This document shows positions 1 through 10,496 of a stretch of DNA of 21,848 bases, in pieces. Numbering within the stretch: position 1 is the stretch's first letter; each line of letters begins with the position of its first letter. The position numbers and the translations under genes are program-made. The notes below the pieces were generated by a model. That model saw only the letters and a list, made by a program, of their open reading frames with translations, was not told the DNA's origin and ran no database searches. This DNA is from a virus: the IMG/VR virus record IMGVR_UViG_3300017739_000135, positions 1 to 21,848 of that record; one strand, given 5' to 3'.

Positions 1-369
1 GACGAGTGGGCTGACAGTGTGGGGCTTGTAGCGTCAACACATTACAACCACCCGTCAACCGTTTGGGTACGCTCTAGCGTTGACCATTACCAATGGATGC
101 AACAGCTTCTTGTTCACCTATTAGCACAAAAGCTGTTACGTTTTGGCACACCTCATATGTACACCAAGTTCGTTGACATCTTAGCTGTTGTGCCTGACAA
201 CATAGACGATGTTGGCTTTACGCCACCACCACCAGCTATGCCTGACGAGTACAAGACAGACTGTTCCATTCAGTCCTATCACAATTATTATGTAGGTGCT
301 AAGTCACACTTTGCTAAGTGGGCGCACACAGAAATGCCAGCATGGTATGCAATGCGGTTATTCGCTTGA
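1..369 (+). CDS. Conserved phage protein, 5'-truncated by the window edge
   Basis: An open frame runs from the first base to TGA at 367-369, so the true start lies upstream. The visible 122 residues carry a pattern I recognise from many phage proteins: a histidine/asparagine-rich stretch (HYNHPSTVW), an aromatic helix (VDHYQWMQQLL), GTPHMYTK, then MPDEYK, a SYHNYY motif, a K-x-x-x-A-x-W spacing and a terminal P-x-WY. Family members are usually listed as hypothetical and some are compared with pyrimidine-dimer glycosylases. I cannot confirm an enzymatic role, because the N-terminal part, where a 'cDKH'-type motif usually sits, is outside the window. The gene ends just before the regulatory region at 370-600. 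An internal GTG at 19 is not needed as a start. Membership of a conserved family is fairly secure; function is unknown. Confidence 0.75.
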   Translation, partial: DEWADSVGLVASTHYNHPSTVWVRSSVDHYQWMQQLLVHLLAQKLLRFGTPHMYTKFVDILAVVPDNIDDVGFTPPPPAMPDEYKTDCSIQSYHNYYVGAKSHFAKWAHTEMPAWYAMRLFA

Positions 370-377
370 CACTTTAT

Positions 378-391
378 ATCCACTCAGGCAT
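378..391 (+). repeat. 14-nt element ATCCACTCAGGCAT, copy 1, inside a palindrome
   Basis: This copy is identical over 14 nt to the one at 4576-4589. Its 3' end forms half of a perfect inverted repeat: AGGCAT (386-391), CGT, ATGCCT (395-400). It sits between the first gene and the regulator/integrase genes. It may be an operator or part of a promoter. The role is inferred only from recurrence in intergenic positions. Confidence 0.6.
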
Positions 392-422
392 CGTATGCCT
401 TAACATTATTACGGAGAGTTTA

Positions 423-734
423 TTGCTTAAATATAAGTATGTGAAGATTCCATTCATCGGGGGGAGCGTCTACGTTGAACACAACAAAGACAACAACTCG
501 TTGTGTGGGTGGGAGTGGTGTTGTAATACACCTGACAGAGAACTCTTTTTGTACATCCGTAAGATACGGGTAATCTATACACCACCATCATGGAGACACA
601 ATGGTCAAACCAATGGCACGGGTAACGGAGAAGCAGGAAGCACTATCACAGATACTGAAAGTGATAGAGAGGTTTCGAGATTTAGACCCAGAGATACAAA
701 CACAAACCGTGGCAGTATTTCTGACTGTGGCTAA
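423..734 (+). CDS. Possible small protein with TTG start, overlapping the regulator gene
   Basis: A GGAG (413-416) lies 6 nt before TTG at 423, opening a 103-codon frame to a stop at 732-734. The first 60 residues look protein-like (hydrophobic and aromatic stretches such as FLYIRKIRVIYTP). After 601 the frame overlaps the far better supported MarR-like gene in another phase and becomes a polar, low-complexity sequence (NTNRGSISD). An overlap of 134 bp is unusual for this genome, where most overlaps are 1-60 nt. I do not recognise the product. The alternative is that 370-600 is a non-coding control region and this frame is fortuitous, which I think slightly more likely. Confidence 0.25.
   Translation: MLKYKYVKIPFIGGSVYVEHNKDNNSLCGWEWCCNTPDRELFLYIRKIRVIYTPPSWRHNGQTNGTGNGEAGSTITDTESDREVSRFRPRDTNTNRGSISDCG
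557..569. promoter_or_regulatory. Palindrome CCGTA-AGA-TACGG upstream of the regulator gene
   Basis: This is a perfect 5-bp inverted repeat with a 3-nt spacer, ending 31 nt before the regulator ATG. MarR-family proteins commonly bind palindromes near their own promoters, so it could be an autoregulatory operator. No binding evidence exists in the sequence itself. The more upstream palindrome at 386-400 has the same arm-3-arm design but a different sequence. Confidence 0.3.
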
Positions 735-957
735 ACATCCTGTACCTATCAAGATGCAGGAAATAGCTGACGAATTGGGGCTTGCACAATCCAGTGTGAG
801 CCGCAACGTGGCATGGCTGGGTAGCTGGTCACGCCACCACAAGAAGGGTCAAGAGTTGCTGGAAGCATACGAAGACCCGATGGAACGCAGACGAAAGCTG
901 GTGAGGCTGACTGCCAAAGGCACACGCTTTGCCAAGTCTTTGTCTGCATTAATATAG
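601..957 (+). CDS. MarR-like winged-helix transcriptional regulator
   Basis: The product is 118 aa. Residues about 50-73 form a helix-turn-helix (MQEIADELGLAQSSVSRNV), with the recognition helix in SSVSRNV. Residues about 97-104 (RRKLVRLTAKG) match the wing and 'LT-x-KG' turn typical of MarR proteins. Basic and acidic helices flank the domain and could form the dimer interface. GGAG at 592-595 lies 5 nt before the ATG, supporting this start; an in-frame ATG at 613 is an alternative. The gene is followed after 10 nt by the integrase, and the integrase ribosome-binding site overlaps the regulator stop codon, so the two are probably co-transcribed. From that linkage I infer a role in controlling integrase or RNA polymerase expression, perhaps as the lysogeny repressor. 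The fold is well supported; the role is inference. Confidence 0.8.
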   Translation: MVKPMARVTEKQEALSQILKVIERFRDLDPEIQTQTVAVFLTVAKHPVPIKMQEIADELGLAQSSVSRNVAWLGSWSRHHKKGQELLEAYEDPMERRRKLVRLTAKGTRFAKSLSALI

Positions 958-967
958 GAGACTGCCT

Positions 968-1969
968 ATGCCAGTACGCAAACGGGGTAACAAGTGGCAA
1001 GTCGATGTCCGTAAACAGGGCATCGTGTTTCGTCACAATTACCCAGCACAAGAACAGGCTGATGCAATGCTTGTTCAGGTTGAGGATGCCATATCCAAAG
1101 GCTTGCCTCTGCCTGACCCTGAGTGTGCTATGCCACAGGCCATGACTGTCGCTGAGTTGTTCAACAAGACAGCCGATAGGTACTGGTCTGAAACTAACTG
1201 GGGCATGACTGCCATCCGTACATCACAAGAGATTGTTGATGTGGTGGGTAGGAACTGTCTCGCCAGCCAGATTGATGACAATCTTGTTGATGACCTGATT
1301 GCTTTCTTCAAACGAAAAGGCAACGGGAATTGTACAATCAATAAGAAGCTGTCTGTATTATCCAAGGCTTGTAACTTTGGGTTCAAACGTGGCTGGCGTA
1401 AAACAAAGCTCAATATTGAGTGGCTTGACGAGGGCAGAGGCCGCATCAGGTTCGTCACTGAAGACGAGGAACTTATGTTGTGGAATATGTTTCGTCAGAT
1501 GCGGATGTATGACGAGCTAGACACTTTCATGTTCCTGATAGATACCGGGATGCGTGTAGGTGAGCTACGCAACATCCAATTCAAAGACCTCAATGGCAGT
1601 CGGTTGACTGTCTGGAAAACCAAGAGTGGGAAACCTCGCACTGTTGTTCTGACAACACGAGCAAAAGAAATATTTGTTCGGCGTAACGGTGACCTTTCAA
1701 TGACACCTGATAAGGTGCAGTATTCTTGGAACAAGGTTAAACGTGCGATGGGCATGGGGCATGACAAAGAATTTGTGCCTCACTGTCTTCGCCATACTTG
1801 TGCCTCTCGCCTCGTGCAGAGGGGTGTTCCCCTTCTTGTTGTGAAGGAATGGCTTGGTCACGCTGACATTCAGATGACCCTAAAATATTCCCATCTGTGT
1901 CCAACAAATCTGGAAGACGCAGTGAAGGTTCTTGAACCTAGCAACAAGGTGACAAAACTTGTGGCATAA
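968..1969 (+). CDS. int: Tyrosine recombinase integrase
   Basis: A 333-aa tyrosine-family site-specific recombinase. A basic N-terminal segment (residues 1-30, MPVRKRGNKWQVDVR) resembles the arm-site-binding domain. Residues about 60-150 form the SAM-like core-binding domain. The catalytic domain has Arg196 in TGMRVGEL, a lysine in the beta-hairpin WKTKSGKPR (217-224), His272-x-x-Arg275 in HCLRHT, His298 in LGHAD and the nucleophile Tyr307 in KYSH. The full catalytic set is therefore present and the enzyme looks active. GGAG at 957-960 is 7 nt before the ATG. Integrases at this place, just upstream of the phage RNA polymerase, are known from P-SSP7 and several pelagiphages. The phage is therefore probably able to integrate, with the attachment site most likely near this gene. 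Confidence 0.96.
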   Translation: MPVRKRGNKWQVDVRKQGIVFRHNYPAQEQADAMLVQVEDAISKGLPLPDPECAMPQAMTVAELFNKTADRYWSETNWGMTAIRTSQEIVDVVGRNCLASQIDDNLVDDLIAFFKRKGNGNCTINKKLSVLSKACNFGFKRGWRKTKLNIEWLDEGRGRIRFVTEDEELMLWNMFRQMRMYDELDTFMFLIDTGMRVGELRNIQFKDLNGSRLTVWKTKSGKPRTVVLTTRAKEIFVRRNGDLSMTPDKVQYSWNKVKRAMGMGHDKEFVPHCLRHTCASRLVQRGVPLLVVKEWLGHADIQMTLKYSHLCPTNLEDAVKVLEPSNKVTKLVA

Positions 1970-2051
1970 TGGTGACATTGTGACACGTATGTCGTTGTGG
2001 CAGAAGGACTTACAGGCGGTTAGCTAGTAACTGATTCTATAAGTTCTGTAT

Positions 2052-2065
2052 ATCCACTACGGCAT
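2052..2065 (+). repeat. 14-nt element, copy 2 (12 of 14 matches)
   Basis: ATCCACTACGGCAT differs from the consensus ATCCACTCAGGCAT at two positions. It is followed by CAATACCTTAAC, and the copy at 378 is followed by a similar TATGCCTTAAC. It lies in the RNA polymerase leader, 55 bp upstream of another copy. Confidence 0.5.
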
Positions 2066-2106
2066 ACATCAATACCTTAACCAAACTGGCTTGGACAATA
2101 GCCATC

Positions 2107-2120
2107 ATCCACTCACGCAT
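2107..2120 (+). repeat. 14-nt element, copy 3 (13 of 14 matches)
   Basis: ATCCACTCACGCAT differs from the consensus at one position. It lies between an in-frame TTG at 2091 and the preferred RNA polymerase ATG at 2163, which supports reading this stretch as leader rather than coding sequence. Tandem copies upstream of one gene would suit cooperative binding by a regulator; that is inference. Confidence 0.5.
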
Positions 2121-2162
2121 CAGTCAGCATGGGTGGATGTCACAAACAGGAGTGTATTGTAT

Positions 2163-4571
2163 ATGTCTAGTGACAAACAAGTTTTACTAGAACGTGAGAT
2201 GCGAGAACATGGATTGTCTCGCTATCACAAAAACAATCTGAAGAAGGCTGAACGCAATCAGGAATCAACCACTGATTACGGACAGCATCTTCTGAGGGCA
2301 ACCTTAGAATCACTTGAGGTTGCCATCACAAGCTTCATCGAAGACAGCATGAATGGAAGGGCTGGTAAGGCCGCAACCAGTGCTGTCCTACTCTCAAACC
2401 TTGAGCCTTCAGTCATCTCTGTCATCACGCTGAAGGTTGTGCTTAATCAAATCACAAGGCAACGTGCCTACACATCTTCAGCAGTGGCACTGGGTATGGC
2501 TCTGGAAGACGAGCTACGCATCAGGTCATTTGAGGAGAACAATCCAAGGCTGATGAAGGTGGTGATGAAAGACCTTGAGTCTCGCTCATCATCCTACTCA
2601 TACAAACGCCGCAAGCTCATCGAAGCGGCACGGCGTGACGGGGTAGAGTGGCAAGCATGGACACAACGTGAACGGCTTCTTGTTGGCAATGCTCTGATTG
2701 ACTTGACCATCCAGCATACTGGGCTTCTGTCTCACAAGATGGTCACATCAGGGGGCAAGAAGCGTAGGCTCTTGTTACCTACCGAAACCACAATGGATGC
2801 CATCAAGGACTTGAACGCTTTCAAGGAAGTGCTGAAGCCTGACTTCTATCCTTGTGTTGTCCCACCCCGTGATTGGATTAGCCCTTACGATGGTGGGTAT
2901 CACTCACACCACATCAGGCCGCTGACTATGGTGAAGACCGACAATCACAATTATCTGTCGGAACTAAAACACTTTGATATGCCTCAAGTCTACGGTGCGG
3001 TGAACGCCATGCAGAGGACAGCCTTCAAGGTGAACACCAGTATCTTGGATGTGCTTCGTGAGGTGTGGAACACGGGCATTGACTTGCCTACCCTACCACC
3101 ATCTGAAAACTATCCCATCCCAGCAAAGCCACAGGACATTGCAACCAACAAGGAAGCAAGGACAGCGTGGAAACGGGAAGCGGTCATCATCCACACCGAA
3201 AACAACAGGCTCGATTCCAAGCGGCTCTTGTTGAGGAAGACCATCGAAGTGGCTGACAAGTTTCAGGATGAACCAGAGTTGTACATGGTTTACCAGCTAG
3301 ACTTTCGTGGCAGGGCGTACTGTGTCCCCAACTACCTCAACCCACAAGGCACTGACTTTGCCAAGGCATTGCTCATGTTCAGCGAGGGCAAGCCGATAGA
3401 TGACAACGGTGCGTGTCACCTTGCCATACACGGGGCTAACTGCTTCGGGTTCGACAAGGTATCACTTCAAGAACGGATTGATTGGGTGCAAAAAAATCAG
3501 AAGCAAATCCTGTCTTGCGCTTCAGACCCATTGGCTGACTTGTGGTGGGCAAAGGAAGCTGACTCTCCGTTCCAGTTCCTTGCCTTCTGCTTTGAGTGGG
3601 CTGGCTGGGTTCAGCAGGGTGCAGGGTTTGTCTCTCACCTTCCTGTGTCTGCTGATGGCTCGTGCAATGGACTGCAACACTTCGCCGCCATGCTTCGGTC
3701 ATCTACCACAGGCAAGGAAGTCAACCTCATCCCACATGAAGAACCACAGGACATTTATCAGAAGGTGGCTGACCGGGTAACCGATAAGCTGAAGACGATG
3801 GACAATCCTCTGGCTAGTCAGTGGCTTGAGTTTGGTGTCAAGCGTGGATGTACCAAGCGTCCCTGCATGGTGTTGCCTTACGGGGGCAAGCAGTATTCTT
3901 TCTCTGACTTTGTGATGGACTACATCGTGGAACAGAAAGAAAAAGGTAATATGCACCCCTTCGGTGACGATGCGTTCAAGGCATCTACCTTCCTTGCCAA
4001 AGTTATCTGGGACTCGATTGGTGAGATTGTCCATGCCGCAACGGATGCGATGGCATGGCTTCAGAAAGCCTCACGGGTTGCCAGTTCGGAAGGCTTGCCT
4101 ATCCGCTGGGATACCCCGGTCAACTTCCCGGTGCTTCAGGCGTACAAGGCCACCAAGCCCTTCCGGGTAGACACCAAGCTTCTTGGTTCTGTCATCCAGC
4201 CCACGCTCTACAAGGAGACAGGTAAGATTGACAAGAACCGTCAGTCCAATGGCATCAGCCCCAACTTTGTACACAGCATTGATGCGGCACACATGATGAT
4301 AACGATTGACGTTGCCACACAGTGTGAAATCTACAGCTTTGCGATGGTGCATGACAGCTACGGTACTCATGCGGCAGATGCAGAATTGATGTGGTGGTGT
4401 CTCCGTAAAGCCTTCGTTGAGATGTACTCTCAGACAGATGTGCTTGAGGATTTCCGTGCTGACTTGCTTGGAGTTCTTCCCAGACACAGGCACTCAGAGA
4501 TAGAGTCTGTCCCATCGAAGGGTGACCTCGACATCAGTGTTGTTGAGGACAGCCCATTCTTCTTTGCCTAG
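2163..4571 (+). CDS. T7-like single-subunit DNA-directed RNA polymerase
   Basis: With ATG 2163 the product is 802 aa (T7 gp1 is 883). AGGAG at 2148-2152 supports this start; the longer frame from TTG 2091 would read through a repeated leader element. Landmarks are DFRGRAY with NPQGTDFAK (about 380-400), the catalytic Asp498 in SADGSCNGLQHF, and Lys565 and Tyr573 in TKRPCMVLPYGGK. These match T7 Lys631 and Tyr639 with the same 8-residue spacing. A specificity-loop region follows at about 672-698 (KLLGSVIQPTL...), then SPNFVHSIDAAHM, the second catalytic Asp731 in MVHDSYGTHAAD, and the FFFA end that parallels T7's FAFA. All key residues are intact. It would transcribe the middle and late genes from dedicated phage promoters, candidates for which lie at 4591, 13186 and 16238. 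The unusual specificity loop fits promoters that differ from T7's. Confidence 0.98.
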   Translation: MSSDKQVLLEREMREHGLSRYHKNNLKKAERNQESTTDYGQHLLRATLESLEVAITSFIEDSMNGRAGKAATSAVLLSNLEPSVISVITLKVVLNQITRQRAYTSSAVALGMALEDELRIRSFEENNPRLMKVVMKDLESRSSSYSYKRRKLIEAARRDGVEWQAWTQRERLLVGNALIDLTIQHTGLLSHKMVTSGGKKRRLLLPTETTMDAIKDLNAFKEVLKPDFYPCVVPPRDWISPYDGGYHSHHIRPLTMVKTDNHNYLSELKHFDMPQVYGAVNAMQRTAFKVNTSILDVLREVWNTGIDLPTLPPSENYPIPAKPQDIATNKEARTAWKREAVIIHTENNRLDSKRLLLRKTIEVADKFQDEPELYMVYQLDFRGRAYCVPNYLNPQGTDFAKALLMFSEGKPIDDNGACHLAIHGANCFGFDKVSLQERIDWVQKNQKQILSCASDPLADLWWAKEADSPFQFLAFCFEWAGWVQQGAGFVSHLPVSADGSCNGLQHFAAMLRSSTTGKEVNLIPHEEPQDIYQKVADRVTDKLKTMDNPLASQWLEFGVKRGCTKRPCMVLPYGGKQYSFSDFVMDYIVEQKEKGNMHPFGDDAFKASTFLAKVIWDSIGEIVHAATDAMAWLQKASRVASSEGLPIRWDTPVNFPVLQAYKATKPFRVDTKLLGSVIQPTLYKETGKIDKNRQSNGISPNFVHSIDAAHMMITIDVATQCEIYSFAMVHDSYGTHAADAELMWWCLRKAFVEMYSQTDVLEDFRADLLGVLPRHRHSEIESVPSKGDLDISVVEDSPFFFA

Positions 4572-4575
4572 TACA

Positions 4576-4589
4576 ATCCACTCAGGCAT
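4576..4589 (+). repeat. 14-nt element ATCCACTCAGGCAT, copy 4, abutting the first phage promoter
   Basis: This copy is identical to that at 378-391 and ends 1 nt before the TAATAC of the promoter at 4591. Its GGCAT forms an imperfect inverted repeat with the promoter's ATACC (GGCAT, TTA, ATACC). A protein bound here would overlap or touch the promoter. It directly follows the RNA polymerase stop codon. Confidence 0.6.
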
Positions 4590-4590
4590 T

Positions 4591-4608
4591 TAATACCCTG
4601 CATATTAG
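4591..4608 (+). promoter_or_regulatory. Putative phage RNA polymerase promoter before the DNA-metabolism genes
   Basis: TAATACCCTGCATAT (4591-4605) recurs exactly at 13186-13200, also between genes. Aligned with the T7 consensus, TAATAC occupies -17 to -12, 11 nt follow ending in an AT-rich ATATTA, and G4608 falls at +1. The known T7 promoter has TAATAC, 11 nt and then G. It lies just after the RNA polymerase gene, as expected for a middle-gene promoter. Confidence comes from the exact repeat plus the layout; it has not been tested. Confidence 0.7.
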
Positions 4609-4633
4609 ACCAGCAGAGTGTTCTGTTGGTCTA
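4606..4633 (+). ncRNA. Strong RNA hairpin at the predicted 5' end of the middle transcript
   Basis: TAGACCAGCAGA (4606-4617) pairs with TCTGTTGGTCTA (4622-4633) in 12 bp with one G-U pair and a GTGT loop. Starting from the predicted +1 (4608) the transcript would open directly with a 10-bp stem. It could protect the mRNA 5' end or be an RNase III site, as in T7 intercistronic hairpins. No T-run follows, so it is not an intrinsic terminator. This is a structural element in a leader, not an independent RNA gene. Confidence 0.55.
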
Positions 4634-4649
4634 TCTAACGGAGACCAAT

Positions 4650-4778
4650 ATGGAAGAACTCCTTGAATTATATGAAGAATTGGATGTTGCAGTACCTGTA
4701 GATATCCAGACCAAGGCCATAGAAACCTATGGCTTCATCTTAAAAGACAACTATCCACAGGAGAATATGGATGGCTAG
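4650..4778 (+). CDS. 42-aa acidic small protein of unknown function
   Basis: ATG at 4650 follows GGAG (4640-4643) with ideal 6-nt spacing, and the frame ends at TAG 4776-4778. The peptide is acidic and helical-looking (MEELLELYEELDVAVPVDI at the N-terminus) and ends in NMDG. It is the first gene after the predicted phage promoter and hairpin and overlaps the SSB start by 8 nt, suggesting coupled translation. I do not recognise it. T7 has a small acidic inhibitor of host RNA polymerase (gp2, 64 aa) near the equivalent position, but no sequence match supports calling this gp2. Confidence 0.65.
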   Translation: MEELLELYEELDVAVPVDIQTKAIETYGFILKDNYPQENMDG

Positions 4779-5397
4779 AAAAGAACATGAACCTTTGCTT
4801 ACACCAAGTGGCATTGCTGTTTACCCTCATCTCAATCGCCCTGATGTTTACAAAGACCCACAGTCTGGTGTCTCTGGCAAGCCTCAGTACAAGGTGAACC
4901 TCTCTCTTACACAAGAAGAAGCTACACCTCTTATCACCAAGATTGAAGAGACCAAGAAGACTGCCCTTGCAATGATACCAAAAGACAAGAAGCAGAAGGA
5001 ATCGGATGACCCTTACTACAACGAGCTTGACAGTGAGGGACAAGAGACAGGCCGTGTCATCTTTAAGTTCAAGATGAACGCTGAGATTAACACAAAGGAT
5101 GGACGCAAGATTGACATTGCACCGAAGCTGTTTGATGCCAAGGGTGTCTTGCTCAACGATTGTGATGACATCTGGGGTGGTTCAATCATGCGTGTATCGG
5201 CTGACCTCATCCCATACTACGTTGCCGCAGTCGGTGCTGGTGTATCACTCAGACTGAAAGCCGCACAAATCATTGAACTTAAAACAGGTGGGGGTGCTGA
5301 TGCCTCGTCATACGGCTTCTCTGCAACGGAAGGATTTACTGCACCGACAGAGACAACCACGAGTTCGGAGTTCTCTGACGATGATGAAGACTTCTAG
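4771..5397 (+). CDS. T7 gp2.5-like single-stranded DNA-binding protein
   Basis: The 208-aa product has the gp2.5 plan. An OB-fold-like body contains Y-K-V-N-L-S-L (about residue 40), VIFKFKMNAEI and IDIAPKLFDAKG. VSADLIPYYVAAVGAGVSLRLKA parallels T7's VKYSLVPYKWNTAVGASVKLQLE. A Thr/Ser/Glu-rich tail ends in FSDDDEDF. The acidic tail with a terminal phenylalanine is the element that contacts DNA polymerase and helicase in T7. T7 gp2.5 is 232 aa. AGGAG at 4759-4763 lies 7 nt before the ATG. The protein would coat single-stranded DNA during replication and recombination. The following endonuclease gene starts inside its last codons. Recognition rests on the conserved core and tail. Confidence 0.9.
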   Translation: MARKEHEPLLTPSGIAVYPHLNRPDVYKDPQSGVSGKPQYKVNLSLTQEEATPLITKIEETKKTALAMIPKDKKQKESDDPYYNELDSEGQETGRVIFKFKMNAEINTKDGRKIDIAPKLFDAKGVLLNDCDDIWGGSIMRVSADLIPYYVAAVGAGVSLRLKAAQIIELKTGGGADASSYGFSATEGFTAPTETTTSSEFSDDDEDF

Positions 5398-5821
5398 TCA
5401 GTACCGCAGTGGTTTAGAACAAAAGGTTGCTGACGAACTGACCCAGCTAGGTGTGAAATTTTACTACGAACCACCCGGCTGGGTTCACTACACCAAACCC
5501 CAATCGAAGTACAAGCCTGACTTTGTGTTGCCCAACGGAATCATAGTTGAGACTAAAGGCCAGTTCCTTTCATCAGATCGTTCCAAGCATAAGCTTATCA
5601 AGGAACAGAACCCTGACTTGGTTATCAGGTTTGTCTTCTCTAACTCTAAAACAAAAATCGGAAGCAAGTCCAAGACAACATATGGAATGTGGTGCAGTAG
5701 GTTCGGCTTTGAATACGCCGACAAGAGCATACCAACAAGCTGGTTGAACGAGGACTTACAACCTAAACAGAAGGAAGCAACCTTTGCTTTATTAAAATGC
5801 GGAAAGAAACGAAAGAAATAA
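5381..5821 (+). CDS. T7 endonuclease I-like Holliday-junction resolvase (gp3)
   Basis: Read from ATG 5381 the protein is 146 aa, close to T7 gp3 (149). The catalytic set is complete: Glu13 in YRSGLEQK, Asp47 in KPDFVLPNG, and Glu57 and Lys59 in IVETKG, matching T7 Glu20, Asp55, Glu65 and Lys67. Further matches are LIKEQNPDLVIRFVFS and the basic C-terminus KCGKKRKK. The longer open frame from 5273 would add 36 residues unlike the family. GGAG at 5367-5370 supports 5381. The gene overlaps the SSB end by 17 nt and the amidase start by 25 nt. The enzyme cuts branched DNA and helps break down host DNA and resolve concatemers in T7; the same role is expected here. Confidence 0.95.
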   Translation: MMKTSSQYRSGLEQKVADELTQLGVKFYYEPPGWVHYTKPQSKYKPDFVLPNGIIVETKGQFLSSDRSKHKLIKEQNPDLVIRFVFSNSKTKIGSKSKTTYGMWCSRFGFEYADKSIPTSWLNEDLQPKQKEATFALLKCGKKRKK

Positions 5822-8247: not shown

Positions 8248-9989
8248 GGTACATCTTTGATATAGAGACAGACGGTCTGTTAGATACTGTTTCTACTATC
8301 CATTGCCTCATCCTCAAGGACATAGACTCAGGCGAGATTATTAGCTACACCGATAACTGGCCTGAAGGTGTCAAGAGGTTAGAGGAAGCTGACCTAATCA
8401 TAGGCCACAACATCATCAAGTACGATATCCCTGTACTGAAAAAGCTAGGTACTTTTAATACACAAGCACAGATAAAAGATACCTTGGTCTGCACCCGTTT
8501 GATATGGGCAGACATCAAGCAGTCTGACTTCAACCGTACTGACTTCCCCCGGAAGCTCATTGGCAGTCACAGTCTTGAGGCATGGGGGCATCGCATTGGC
8601 AACTACAAAGGCAACTACGATGGTGGCTGGGAACACTTCAGTCAGGAGATGTGGGAATACTGCATCCAAGATGTCGAGGTGACTAGCACACTGTGGGATA
8701 AAATTGTTGCAAAAAATTATAGCGAACAAGCGATGGAGCTAGAACATGAGTTGGCTGAAATTATTTACAGGCAAGAAACTTTTGGATTTGCCTTTGACAA
8801 AGAGAGGGCTGGTTCTTTATATGCTCAACTATCAGGACGAAAGCTTGAGCTTCAACAACAACTCAAAGCAACCTTCCCCGATTGGGAAATCAAAACCCCA
8901 TTCACCCCCAAGGTAAACTCTAAGAAGTTTGGTTACGAAAAGGGTGTGCCCACCTACAAAGTAAAGACGGTGGAGTTCAACCCCGGTAGCCGTGACCATG
9001 TGGCTGACCGTTTGATGAAGCTCAGAGGCTGGAAGCCAAAAGACTTTACCAATGACGGGAAGCCGAAGGTAGATGAAGAGACTCTCTCAACCCTAGACTA
9101 CCCCGAATCAAAGCTCCTTGTTGAATATTACACCCTCATCAAGAGGCTGGGTCAGCTAGGCGATGGCAACTATGCGTGGATAAAGGAAGAAATAAATGGG
9201 CGTATTCATGGTTCAGTCAACACTAATGGCGCAGTCACTGGACGAGCTACACATAGCTTTCCGAACTTGGCGCAAGTCCCAGCCATCGGTGTCCCCTATG
9301 GAAAAGAGTGTCGTGAGTTGTTCACTGTTGCTTCTGGCAACAAGCTTGTGGGCGTTGACGTAAGTGGGCTTGAGTTAAGATGCTTGGCTCATTACATGGC
9401 AAAATATGATGGGGGTGCTTATGCAGAAACAGTCGTTAGTGGCGATGTCCATAGCGAGAACCAAAAGGCGGCTGGCCTACCCACCCGTAGTACAGCCAAG
9501 ACGTTCATCTATGGATTCTTGTACGGGGCAGGGGCACAGAAAATCGGAAGCATCGTTGGTAAAGGAGCAAAGGAAGGGGCACAACTTAAAGCCAGATTCC
9601 TGAAGCAGTTACCAGCCTTGGACAAACTAATAACAAAAGTTCAGAAAGCATCTGAACGAGGACACCTTATTGGACTAGACGGCAGACAACTGAAAGTTCG
9701 CTCGTCTCATGCCGCACTTAATACCCTTCTGCAATCTGCTGGTGGCTTAATCTGCAAGCAGTGGATTGTTGAATTTGACCGTGCCTTGAAACAGGCAGGG
9801 TTGTCGAGTTCATGTGACCAAGTGTGTTGGATACATGATGAGATTCAATTAGAAGTAAAGGAAGATATGGCAGATGACATTGGAAAACTCGCAGTTGAAT
9901 GTATTGGTAGGTCAGGAGATTTCTTCGGAGTTCGATGTGAACTCACTGGAGAATACAGAGTCGGAAACAACTGGGCAGAAACCCATTAA
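8244..9989 (+). CDS. T7-like family A DNA polymerase (gp5), short form
   Basis: The product is 581 aa (T7 gp5 is 704). The 3'-5' exonuclease has Asp6 and Glu8 (FDIETDG), Asp61 (HNIIKYD) and Asp143 (CIQDVEV). Polymerase motif A is VGVDVSGLELRCLAHYM (Asp372). Motif B is STAKTFIYGFLYG (Lys419, Tyr423 at the T7 Tyr526 position). Motif C is CWIHDEIQLEV (Asp532). HGSVNTNGAVTGRATH and SFPNLAQVP match T7 closely. From the third exonuclease aspartate to motif A there are 229 residues against 301 in T7. That deficit is about the size of T7's thioredoxin-binding loop, which therefore seems absent. It starts with an ATGA overlap with the MazG-like gene. It would replicate the phage genome together with the helicase and SSB. 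Confidence 0.97.
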   Translation: MRYIFDIETDGLLDTVSTIHCLILKDIDSGEIISYTDNWPEGVKRLEEADLIIGHNIIKYDIPVLKKLGTFNTQAQIKDTLVCTRLIWADIKQSDFNRTDFPRKLIGSHSLEAWGHRIGNYKGNYDGGWEHFSQEMWEYCIQDVEVTSTLWDKIVAKNYSEQAMELEHELAEIIYRQETFGFAFDKERAGSLYAQLSGRKLELQQQLKATFPDWEIKTPFTPKVNSKKFGYEKGVPTYKVKTVEFNPGSRDHVADRLMKLRGWKPKDFTNDGKPKVDEETLSTLDYPESKLLVEYYTLIKRLGQLGDGNYAWIKEEINGRIHGSVNTNGAVTGRATHSFPNLAQVPAIGVPYGKECRELFTVASGNKLVGVDVSGLELRCLAHYMAKYDGGAYAETVVSGDVHSENQKAAGLPTRSTAKTFIYGFLYGAGAQKIGSIVGKGAKEGAQLKARFLKQLPALDKLITKVQKASERGHLIGLDGRQLKVRSSHAALNTLLQSAGGLICKQWIVEFDRALKQAGLSSSCDQVCWIHDEIQLEVKEDMADDIGKLAVECIGRSGDFFGVRCELTGEYRVGNNWAETH

Positions 9990-10488
9990 GCATTGCATTG
10001 ATTGCGGTGACCCCCTTGTTATTGGAGATAACTGGACAGAAGCCAGAGAAAATCAGAGCAAGTATGTATGTAAGTCATGCTGGCACAAAGGCAAACGTGC
10101 TGAGATGTGGGTGGGTGGAAAGTATATCGCAAAGTCCCACCCGTTATGGAAGCCCGGACGTTACAAAACATTTGAAGAAGCGGCCTTTGAAAGTCTTGGT
10201 AACTACACTCGCAGTAAGGAAGGTGAAGTGTACATCATCACCAACCCTGCTTGGCCTGAGTGGATTAAGGTAGGCATGGCAGTCGATGCTGATGACCGTT
10301 GCAACGGTTACCAAACAAGTAGCCCATTTCGTGACTATGAAATTGTGTATTCGTTTAAGACCGATGACAGGCGCAAATCAGAGCGTGATGCTCATACTTT
10401 GATTGAACGGTATGCAGAAGAGAGGCGTGGTGAATGGTTTAAGATTACACCGGGCACGGCATCTCATTTATTATCAACTATCCACTGA
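9937..10488 (+). CDS. Zinc-ribbon plus GIY-YIG/T5orf172-type protein
   Basis: With GTG 9937 the product is 183 aa. GGAG at 9927-9930 with 6-nt spacing favours it, though the frame stays open from ATG 9874. The N-terminal part has two cysteine pairs (HCIDCG and CKSC, about 27 residues apart) forming a probable zinc ribbon. The C-terminal half (GEVYIITNP, WIKVGMAVDADDRCNGYQTSSPF, DAHTLIERYAEERRGEWFKI) matches the T5orf172/MUG113 branch of the GIY-YIG nuclease fold. The catalytic Tyr, Arg and Glu are plausible in VYII, DDRCNGYQ and GEWF. The gene overlaps the polymerase end by 53 nt. It may be a structure-specific or homing-type nuclease. The fold assignment is good, the function uncertain. Confidence 0.8.
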   Translation: MNSLENTESETTGQKPIKHCIDCGDPLVIGDNWTEARENQSKYVCKSCWHKGKRAEMWVGGKYIAKSHPLWKPGRYKTFEEAAFESLGNYTRSKEGEVYIITNPAWPEWIKVGMAVDADDRCNGYQTSSPFRDYEIVYSFKTDDRRKSERDAHTLIERYAEERRGEWFKITPGTASHLLSTIH

Positions 10489-10496
10489 GGTATATT

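Follow-up and report, generated by a model that had tools for sequence, protein, structure and literature searches.

The window analysed here is a 21,848-base virus fragment from IMG/VR (record IMGVR_UViG_3300017739_000135) whose left end is absent and in which the gene for a T7-type RNA polymerase (RNAP) is preceded by genes for a marR-type regulator (marR) and an integrase (int). Its gene order is T7-like, running from these three genes through single-stranded DNA-binding protein, endonuclease, amidase, primase-helicase, DNA polymerase, exonuclease, ribonucleotide reductase, portal and capsid to the internal virion genes. The cassette lies head to tail on the + strand, with a gap of 10 nt between marR and int and of 193 nt between int and RNAP, and consists of the following genes:

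601..957, + strand: marR-type winged-helix regulator, 118 amino acids, assigned from PHROG, Pfam and a structure model
968..1969, + strand: tyrosine integrase, 333 amino acids, assigned from PF00589 and its catalytic residues
2163..4571, + strand: T7-type single-subunit RNAP, 802 amino acids, ATG at 2163 and stop at 4571

A first-pass annotation had described a regulator, an intact integrase and RNAP as consecutive here, and profile searches bear this out. The regulator matches PHROG 9665 'transcriptional regulator' (E value 1.5e-31) and, exactly at the cut-off, Pfam HTH_27 (E 1.7e-4). The integrase matches PF00589 (E 2.5e-22) and has the catalytic R..H-x-x-R..H..Y set as R196, H272, R275, H298 and Y307, the catalytic lysine not being among the residues assigned. 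RNAP possesses a full-length catalytic domain (PF00940, E 9e-108; PF14700) and matches PHROG 414 over residues 4-802 of 802 (E 2e-267). In an AlphaFold2 model of the regulator (predicted local distance difference test score 90) the predicted fold is a winged helix with MarR topology, nearly all of the 50 best PDB matches listed are MarR-family proteins and there is a profile match to 2eth (E 1.2e-6). MarR-family proteins have long C-terminal dimerisation helices; the model ends soon past the wing, in a single short helix formed by residues 105-115. As modelled, the regulator is a small winged-helix protein of the MarR type.

The occurrence of this gene order was assessed in viral contigs, namely the 80 with the best RNAP matches among at least 600; 78 of them were assessed, and in 28 the DNA upstream of RNAP extends for 3.5 kb or more; duplicates (L001, L002, L014, L016, L018, L110 and L167) were dropped before upstream genes were counted. 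Among these 28, RNAP is preceded by both marR and int in 14, by int only in 6, by neither in 8 and by marR only in none, and the three-gene order is therefore not due to chance. Four contigs whose RNAP is 69-72% identical to that of the window carry int with no marR found in 8 kb (L116, L118) or 2-3 kb (L115, L030) of upstream DNA, so that the pair is common but not obligatory. The first-pass annotation would have counted absence of the regulator from lysogenising relatives against the pair; L116 and L118 have an integrase and no detectable marR, but they are not known lysogenisers. Four marR-less pelagiphages chosen as controls (HTVC168P, HTVC142P, HTVC031P and Eistla) gave no int match in the sequence examined.

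Regulator matches (E up to 0.1) were obtained in 51 of 50,697 phage records, comprising 22 from Pelagibacter, 9 from Synechococcus, 6 uncultured and 5 from Roseobacter, together with LUZ100 and others. In nine named phages, marR lies upstream of RNAP by 1.5-1.8 kb in eight and by 4.3 kb in Pasto, the distance in the window being 1.6 kb. The RNAP of the window is closest to those of pelagiphages, with up to 46% identity. Two further arrangements were seen. In a Vampirovibrionales bin, RNAP is directly preceded by a tandem of two or three MarR paralogs (L035 7319-8722 and L055 6181-7017), with no integrase found. A 66% identical MarR homologue is present on L010 (1299-1769) and L011 (4741-5061), contigs without RNAP or integrase matches, and L010 has terminase-like and portal-like open reading frames (ORFs) as judged by eye; the regulator may therefore also serve unrelated phages.

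In bacterial chromosomes, neither marR nor int lies upstream of RNAP in 52 of 66 assessable genome contigs, and these loci were first read as lacking marR. That reading was rejected, as in 16 to 18 of 27 genomes it is the position of marR that differs and not its presence. The far-end position had been predicted from the placement of the phage attachment site (attP) before 27 of 80 genome contigs, chosen mainly as large chromosomal contigs, were searched with marR and RNAP alignments. All 27 bacterial genomes carry a related RNAP; in 16 of them marR is found on the same strand 34.6-40.3 kb further downstream, about one phage genome away, and two more (G005 and G006) would fit a prophage divided between two contigs. 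At all 18 far ends examined int follows marR directly. Bacterial prophages with the gene pair exist, natural lysogens including Litchfieldella qijiaojingensis (L034/L190) and Marinicella marina (L087/L205), yet in 16 of the 27 genomes the pair does not stand ahead of RNAP.

Direct repeats link the side after int to the side before RNAP in 8 of these 18 prophages (98, 60, 56, 24, 21, 17, 17 and 15 bp). Several of the repeats sit at tRNA genes, with a tRNA gene present at the 60-bp repeat of L044 and the 56-bp repeat of L087, and the short cores would fit the 12-bp tRNA-Leu att motif reported for the rhizobial T7-like vTRX32-1 group (PMC8631192). Together, the far-end layout and the att repeats point, for the related prophages, to an attP in the int-RNAP interval, and the phage of the window, of which no prophage was seen, would presumably integrate in the same way:

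1970..2051, + strand: putative attP region, lying after int and ahead of the candidate operator O2 described below, deduced from att repeats in relatives and not base-exact

With attP so placed, integration would part marR, int and the host promoters further upstream from RNAP, and because marR lies far downstream in the prophages, any control of RNAP in lysogens must act in trans.

The same genes could instead serve lytic growth, the regulator being an early transcription factor that redirects transcription to the phage and the integrase integrating only transiently, with no true lysogeny. In HTVC022P marR, RNAP and int are highly expressed early in lytic infection and a takeover of transcription has been suggested (PMC12753301), T7-like cyanophages are reported to integrate at tRNA-Leu, with attP downstream of int, and to do so without stable lysogeny (PMC8776855), and lysogens of LUZ100 were not obtained (PMC10134795). 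We nevertheless consider this unlikely, in view of the prophages with marR and int at the far end in the chromosomes of many bacteria, of the 28 assessable viral contigs, in which marR never occurs apart from int, and of the four marR-less control pelagiphages, which also gave no int match.

The control regions of the cassette share a 14-bp motif. The pattern ATCCACTNNNGCAT, defined only after the four sites had been noticed, has 4 copies in the window against 0 in 100 shuffles, and all four fall within three control regions, where they are accompanied by candidate promoters:

366..396, + strand: candidate host-type promoter of the marR-int operon, with TTGACA at 366-371, an operator in the spacer and a weak -10-like TCGTAT at 391-396, spacing 19
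378..391, + strand: candidate operator O1, ATCCACTCAGGCAT, beside the TTGACA box ahead of the marR operon
2052..2065, + strand: candidate operator O2, ATCCACTACGGCAT, between int and RNAP
2107..2120, + strand: candidate operator O3, ATCCACTCACGCAT, between int and RNAP, forming the 5' arm of a hairpin at 2106-2139
4576..4589, + strand: candidate operator O4, ATCCACTCAGGCAT, 4 nt past the RNAP stop and directly ahead of a candidate phage promoter
4591..4609, + strand: candidate phage-RNAP promoter TAATACCCTGCATATTAGA, directly 3' of O4, with a related form in L005 and L006
13186..13204, + strand: second candidate phage-RNAP promoter TAATACCCTGCATATAAGA, sharing an exact 15-base core with that at 4591

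The candidate promoter at 366-396 is kept in L003 and has the layout of the mapped promoters P1 and P2 of LUZ100, and the succession of a -35 box and a site seen at O1 is also found in L003 and L111. A consensus scan of positions 1-5400, which permits spacers of 16-18 only, gave no host-type match on the + strand. The first 15 bases of TAATACCCTGCATATTAGA occur exactly in the window only at 4591 and 13186. Between int and RNAP we found neither a phage-type promoter nor a copy of the window's own phage promoter, and the + strand of this interval gave no intrinsic terminator call. Sites of the O2 and O3 type ahead of RNAP recur in relatives whose RNAP is about 77-92% identical, and in a search for words shared by the regions upstream of marR and of RNAP, all 40 shuffles were beaten only for the window among 10 loci.

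The RNAP leader (2087-2139) has two tandem hairpins that are kept in 7 sequences, with changes on both sides at 4 of 16 pairs, and the second of them includes O3. They may act in processing or translation control; a role as terminator was dropped because no T-run follows them. A small conserved open frame (about 422-600) lies between O1 and marR, and gaps in relatives are mostly multiples of three. Elsewhere in the window, a weaker motif copy, ATCCACTGAGGTAT, is found at 10480-10493 just ahead of the start of the exonuclease gene, and an ORF with a T5orf172/MUG113 nuclease-type domain (9874-10488) overlaps the end of the DNA polymerase gene.

The position of O4 past RNAP was followed in relatives, counting loci with identical first 30 nt past the RNAP stop once in the dyad, recurrence and matrix counts, which sets aside L048 and L103 and so reduces the 18 far-end prophages to the 16 counted here. 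A weight matrix was derived from the window plus four close relatives, with a cut-off score of at least 8 and the training loci left out of the test. Among the other phages and contigs, it placed a site 2-4 nt past the RNAP stop in 18 of 25 with marR compared to 2 of 11 without (Fisher 0.004), and it did so in 1 of 54 other genome contigs. By a matrix-free criterion, a 14-bp dyad with at least 5 of 7 pairs, 15 of 35 loci with marR have a dyad at exactly offset 4, every other offset having at most 2; about 1.3% was expected (binomial 1e-19), in loci that share descent. This group of 35 comprises the window, close relatives, Pasto, genome contigs with an upstream marR and others, its named phages having been chosen for their marR. 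Among far-end prophages the dyad is at offset 3 in 4 of 16 and at offset 4 in another 4 of 16. The sequence of the dyad varies by phage (ATCCGC, ACCCAC, ATACAC and TCCCAT types), and a matching copy stands ahead of RNAP in the same genome at 14 of 14 positions in L045 and L072 and at 13 of 14 in L036, L076, L095, L104, L142 and L170; in many other genomes the copy ahead of RNAP does not stand out.

A related locus with mapped promoters is that of Pseudomonas phage LUZ100, in which they were located by ONT-cappable-seq and marR and int are co-transcribed from the host promoter P3 (PMC10134795). The motif ATSC-N6-GSAT has 13 copies in LUZ100 versus 1.67 expected, a number reached by 0 of 100 shuffles. 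One site lies inside each of the mapped host promoters (positions 378, 579 and 2228, in P1 at 356-405, P2 at 557-606 and P3 at 2224-2273; PMC10134795), and in P1 and P2 it occupies the spacer that follows the -35 TTGACA and precedes the -10 region. The copies adjoining RNAP in LUZ100 had been noticed before the matrix was trained, those in P1, P2 and P3 had not. If these sites are operators, the regulator would shut every host-driven entry point of LUZ100 and not RNAP alone.

The dyads could also be something other than operators of the regulator, namely elements of phage promoters, signals for RNA processing or sites recognised by a host protein. O3 is one arm of the conserved leader hairpin, 8 of 47 other genome contigs in which marR was not assessed have a dyad at offset 4, and 3 of 11 viral or phage loci without marR have one at offset 3, among them L184 and L187 with strong dyads (6-7 of 7 pairs), an integrase and no marR found. 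The host promoters of LUZ100, however, carry sigma70-like sequences and all three contain a site, whereas its phage promoters share a different element, and the dyad as a part of phage promoters was rejected on this ground. Moreover, the dyad sequence varies from phage to phage but is repeated inside a single genome, and most marR-less pelagiphage-type loci have a phage-promoter-like sequence directly past RNAP instead of a dyad. We therefore give these alternatives little credence. In the marR-less and int-less pelagiphages L023, L027, L029 and L020 the element TTCCCATAGTAGAT, probably a phage promoter, is present ahead of RNAP, and L020 has a similar sequence directly past RNAP.

As a whole, these observations are best explained, we think with fair probability, by a lysogeny module of a temperate T7-like phage that uses MarR-like dyad operators and in which integration separates marR and int from RNAP. 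After infection, host RNA polymerase would start near 366-396 and transcribe the small ORF, marR and int, and transcription would read through from int into the RNAP gene, as suggested by the lack of a called intrinsic terminator between them. A MarR-like dimer would bind the 14-bp dyads at its own promoter, ahead of RNAP and in the stretch that separates the RNAP stop from the first phage promoter; with dyads bound both before and after RNAP, the regulator could stop the supply of RNAP as well as its use. Integration would bring marR and int to the far end of the prophage, where they could still be expressed, whereas RNAP would stay at the opposite end, disconnected from the upstream host promoters of the phage. 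RNAP would then have no starter, as the phi1 promoter of LUZ100 needs RNAP itself and no host-type or phage-type promoter was found at that place in the window. The regulator, acting in trans on the dyads near RNAP, would form a second lock, keeping the lysogen silent, and excision would rejoin the circuit.

The simpler proposal of the first-pass annotation was that the upstream regulator acts in place, on the RNAP gene alone, to silence the prophage. The regulator does stand directly upstream in the free phage and candidate sites are present ahead of RNAP. This model is nonetheless very improbable, since in the 16 genomes described above the regulator is at the other prophage end and since candidate sites are also found in the promoter region of its own operon and in every mapped host promoter of LUZ100, so that the picture of a pair ahead of a single controlled gene is wrong as to position in the prophage and probably too simple. 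Its view of the pair as a lysogeny module is plausible, as the regulator accompanies int in T7-like phages, but the core idea is not new, because the LUZ100 report already proposes that MarR represses the phage promoter ahead of RNAP, crediting Boeckman 2022 for binding sites flanking that promoter (PMC10134795). The operator set and the integration-coupled layout go beyond that annotation.

Several observations weigh against the lysogeny module with dyad operators. The sites in the window are weakly symmetric, O4 pairing at 3 of 7 positions, the matrix places a site past RNAP in only 7 of 16 far-end prophages, and dyad copies near marR are weaker, being clear in L006 and L071 and mostly at background elsewhere, including the pelagiphages; the strong dyads of the marR-less L184 and L187 belong here as well. 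Nine of the 27 genomes depart from the far-end layout: marR is upstream in G001 and G013 and 5.5 kb downstream in G016, no marR match was obtained in G010 and G015, and G020, G023, G024 and G027 gave weak unlinked matches only. Matching to tRNAs did not locate the attP of the window, the best match of 9 nt equalling controls. In L087 the att repeat is followed, ahead of RNAP, by a promoter-like sequence, and integration would therefore not be enough to silence RNAP in that prophage, which is an argument that the second lock of regulator and dyads is needed. The failure to obtain stable lysogens of LUZ100 and of T7-like cyanophages counts on the same side.

LUZ100 is the known system that most resembles the window, with the same gene order, a regulator, integrase and RNAP that are 48.6%, 33% and 41.6% identical, and the same 14-bp motif, present also 4 nt past the RNAP stop. 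It differs in that its int-RNAP interval holds a terminator and a phage promoter, the phage-type phi1 being the sole promoter mapped there (PMC10134795), neither of which was found in the window. The temperate HTVC019P-type pelagiphages HTVC022P and HTVC019P, of which HTVC022P is cited as integrating into tRNA-Cys (PMC12753301), likewise share the order (regulator 54-55% and RNAP 43% identical) and have a dyad 4 nt past the RNAP stop, with no clear site near marR; their G+C content is 34-35% compared to 47% in the window, and a different host is therefore likely for the window phage. Rhizobium phage Pasto has a helix-turn-helix regulator, integrase and RNAP in the same order, but its regulator is 25% identical and no window-type motif was found past its RNAP. 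By analogy, the nearest known logic would be the integration-dependent immunity of mycobacteriophages (Broussard 2013, as covered in the review PMC9262239), where repressor and integrase form one operon and integration alters the regulatory state. In the mycobacteriophages the repressor gene itself contains attP, and it is integration that activates the repressor (PMC9262239). In the related prophages studied here the att repeats lie after int and outside the marR ORF, so that attP would be outside both genes and integration would act by cutting RNAP from upstream promoters.

T7-like phages have long been taken as purely lytic, and stable lysogens have not been obtained from the integrase-carrying LUZ100 and cyanophages. 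It is conceivable, at somewhat less than an even chance, that integration itself is the switch for T7-like lysogeny across many phyla, disconnecting RNAP from the upstream phage-borne host promoters while the repressor is still expressed, with excision reconnecting them and the dyads guarding against stray start-up; this idea was not met in the open-access literature, to which our coverage extended. The candidate operator set and the integration-dependent layout make dormancy in T7-like phages directly testable. They would help to sort T7-like phages capable of lysogeny from others, which matters for phage therapy and for estimates of lysogeny in the ocean.

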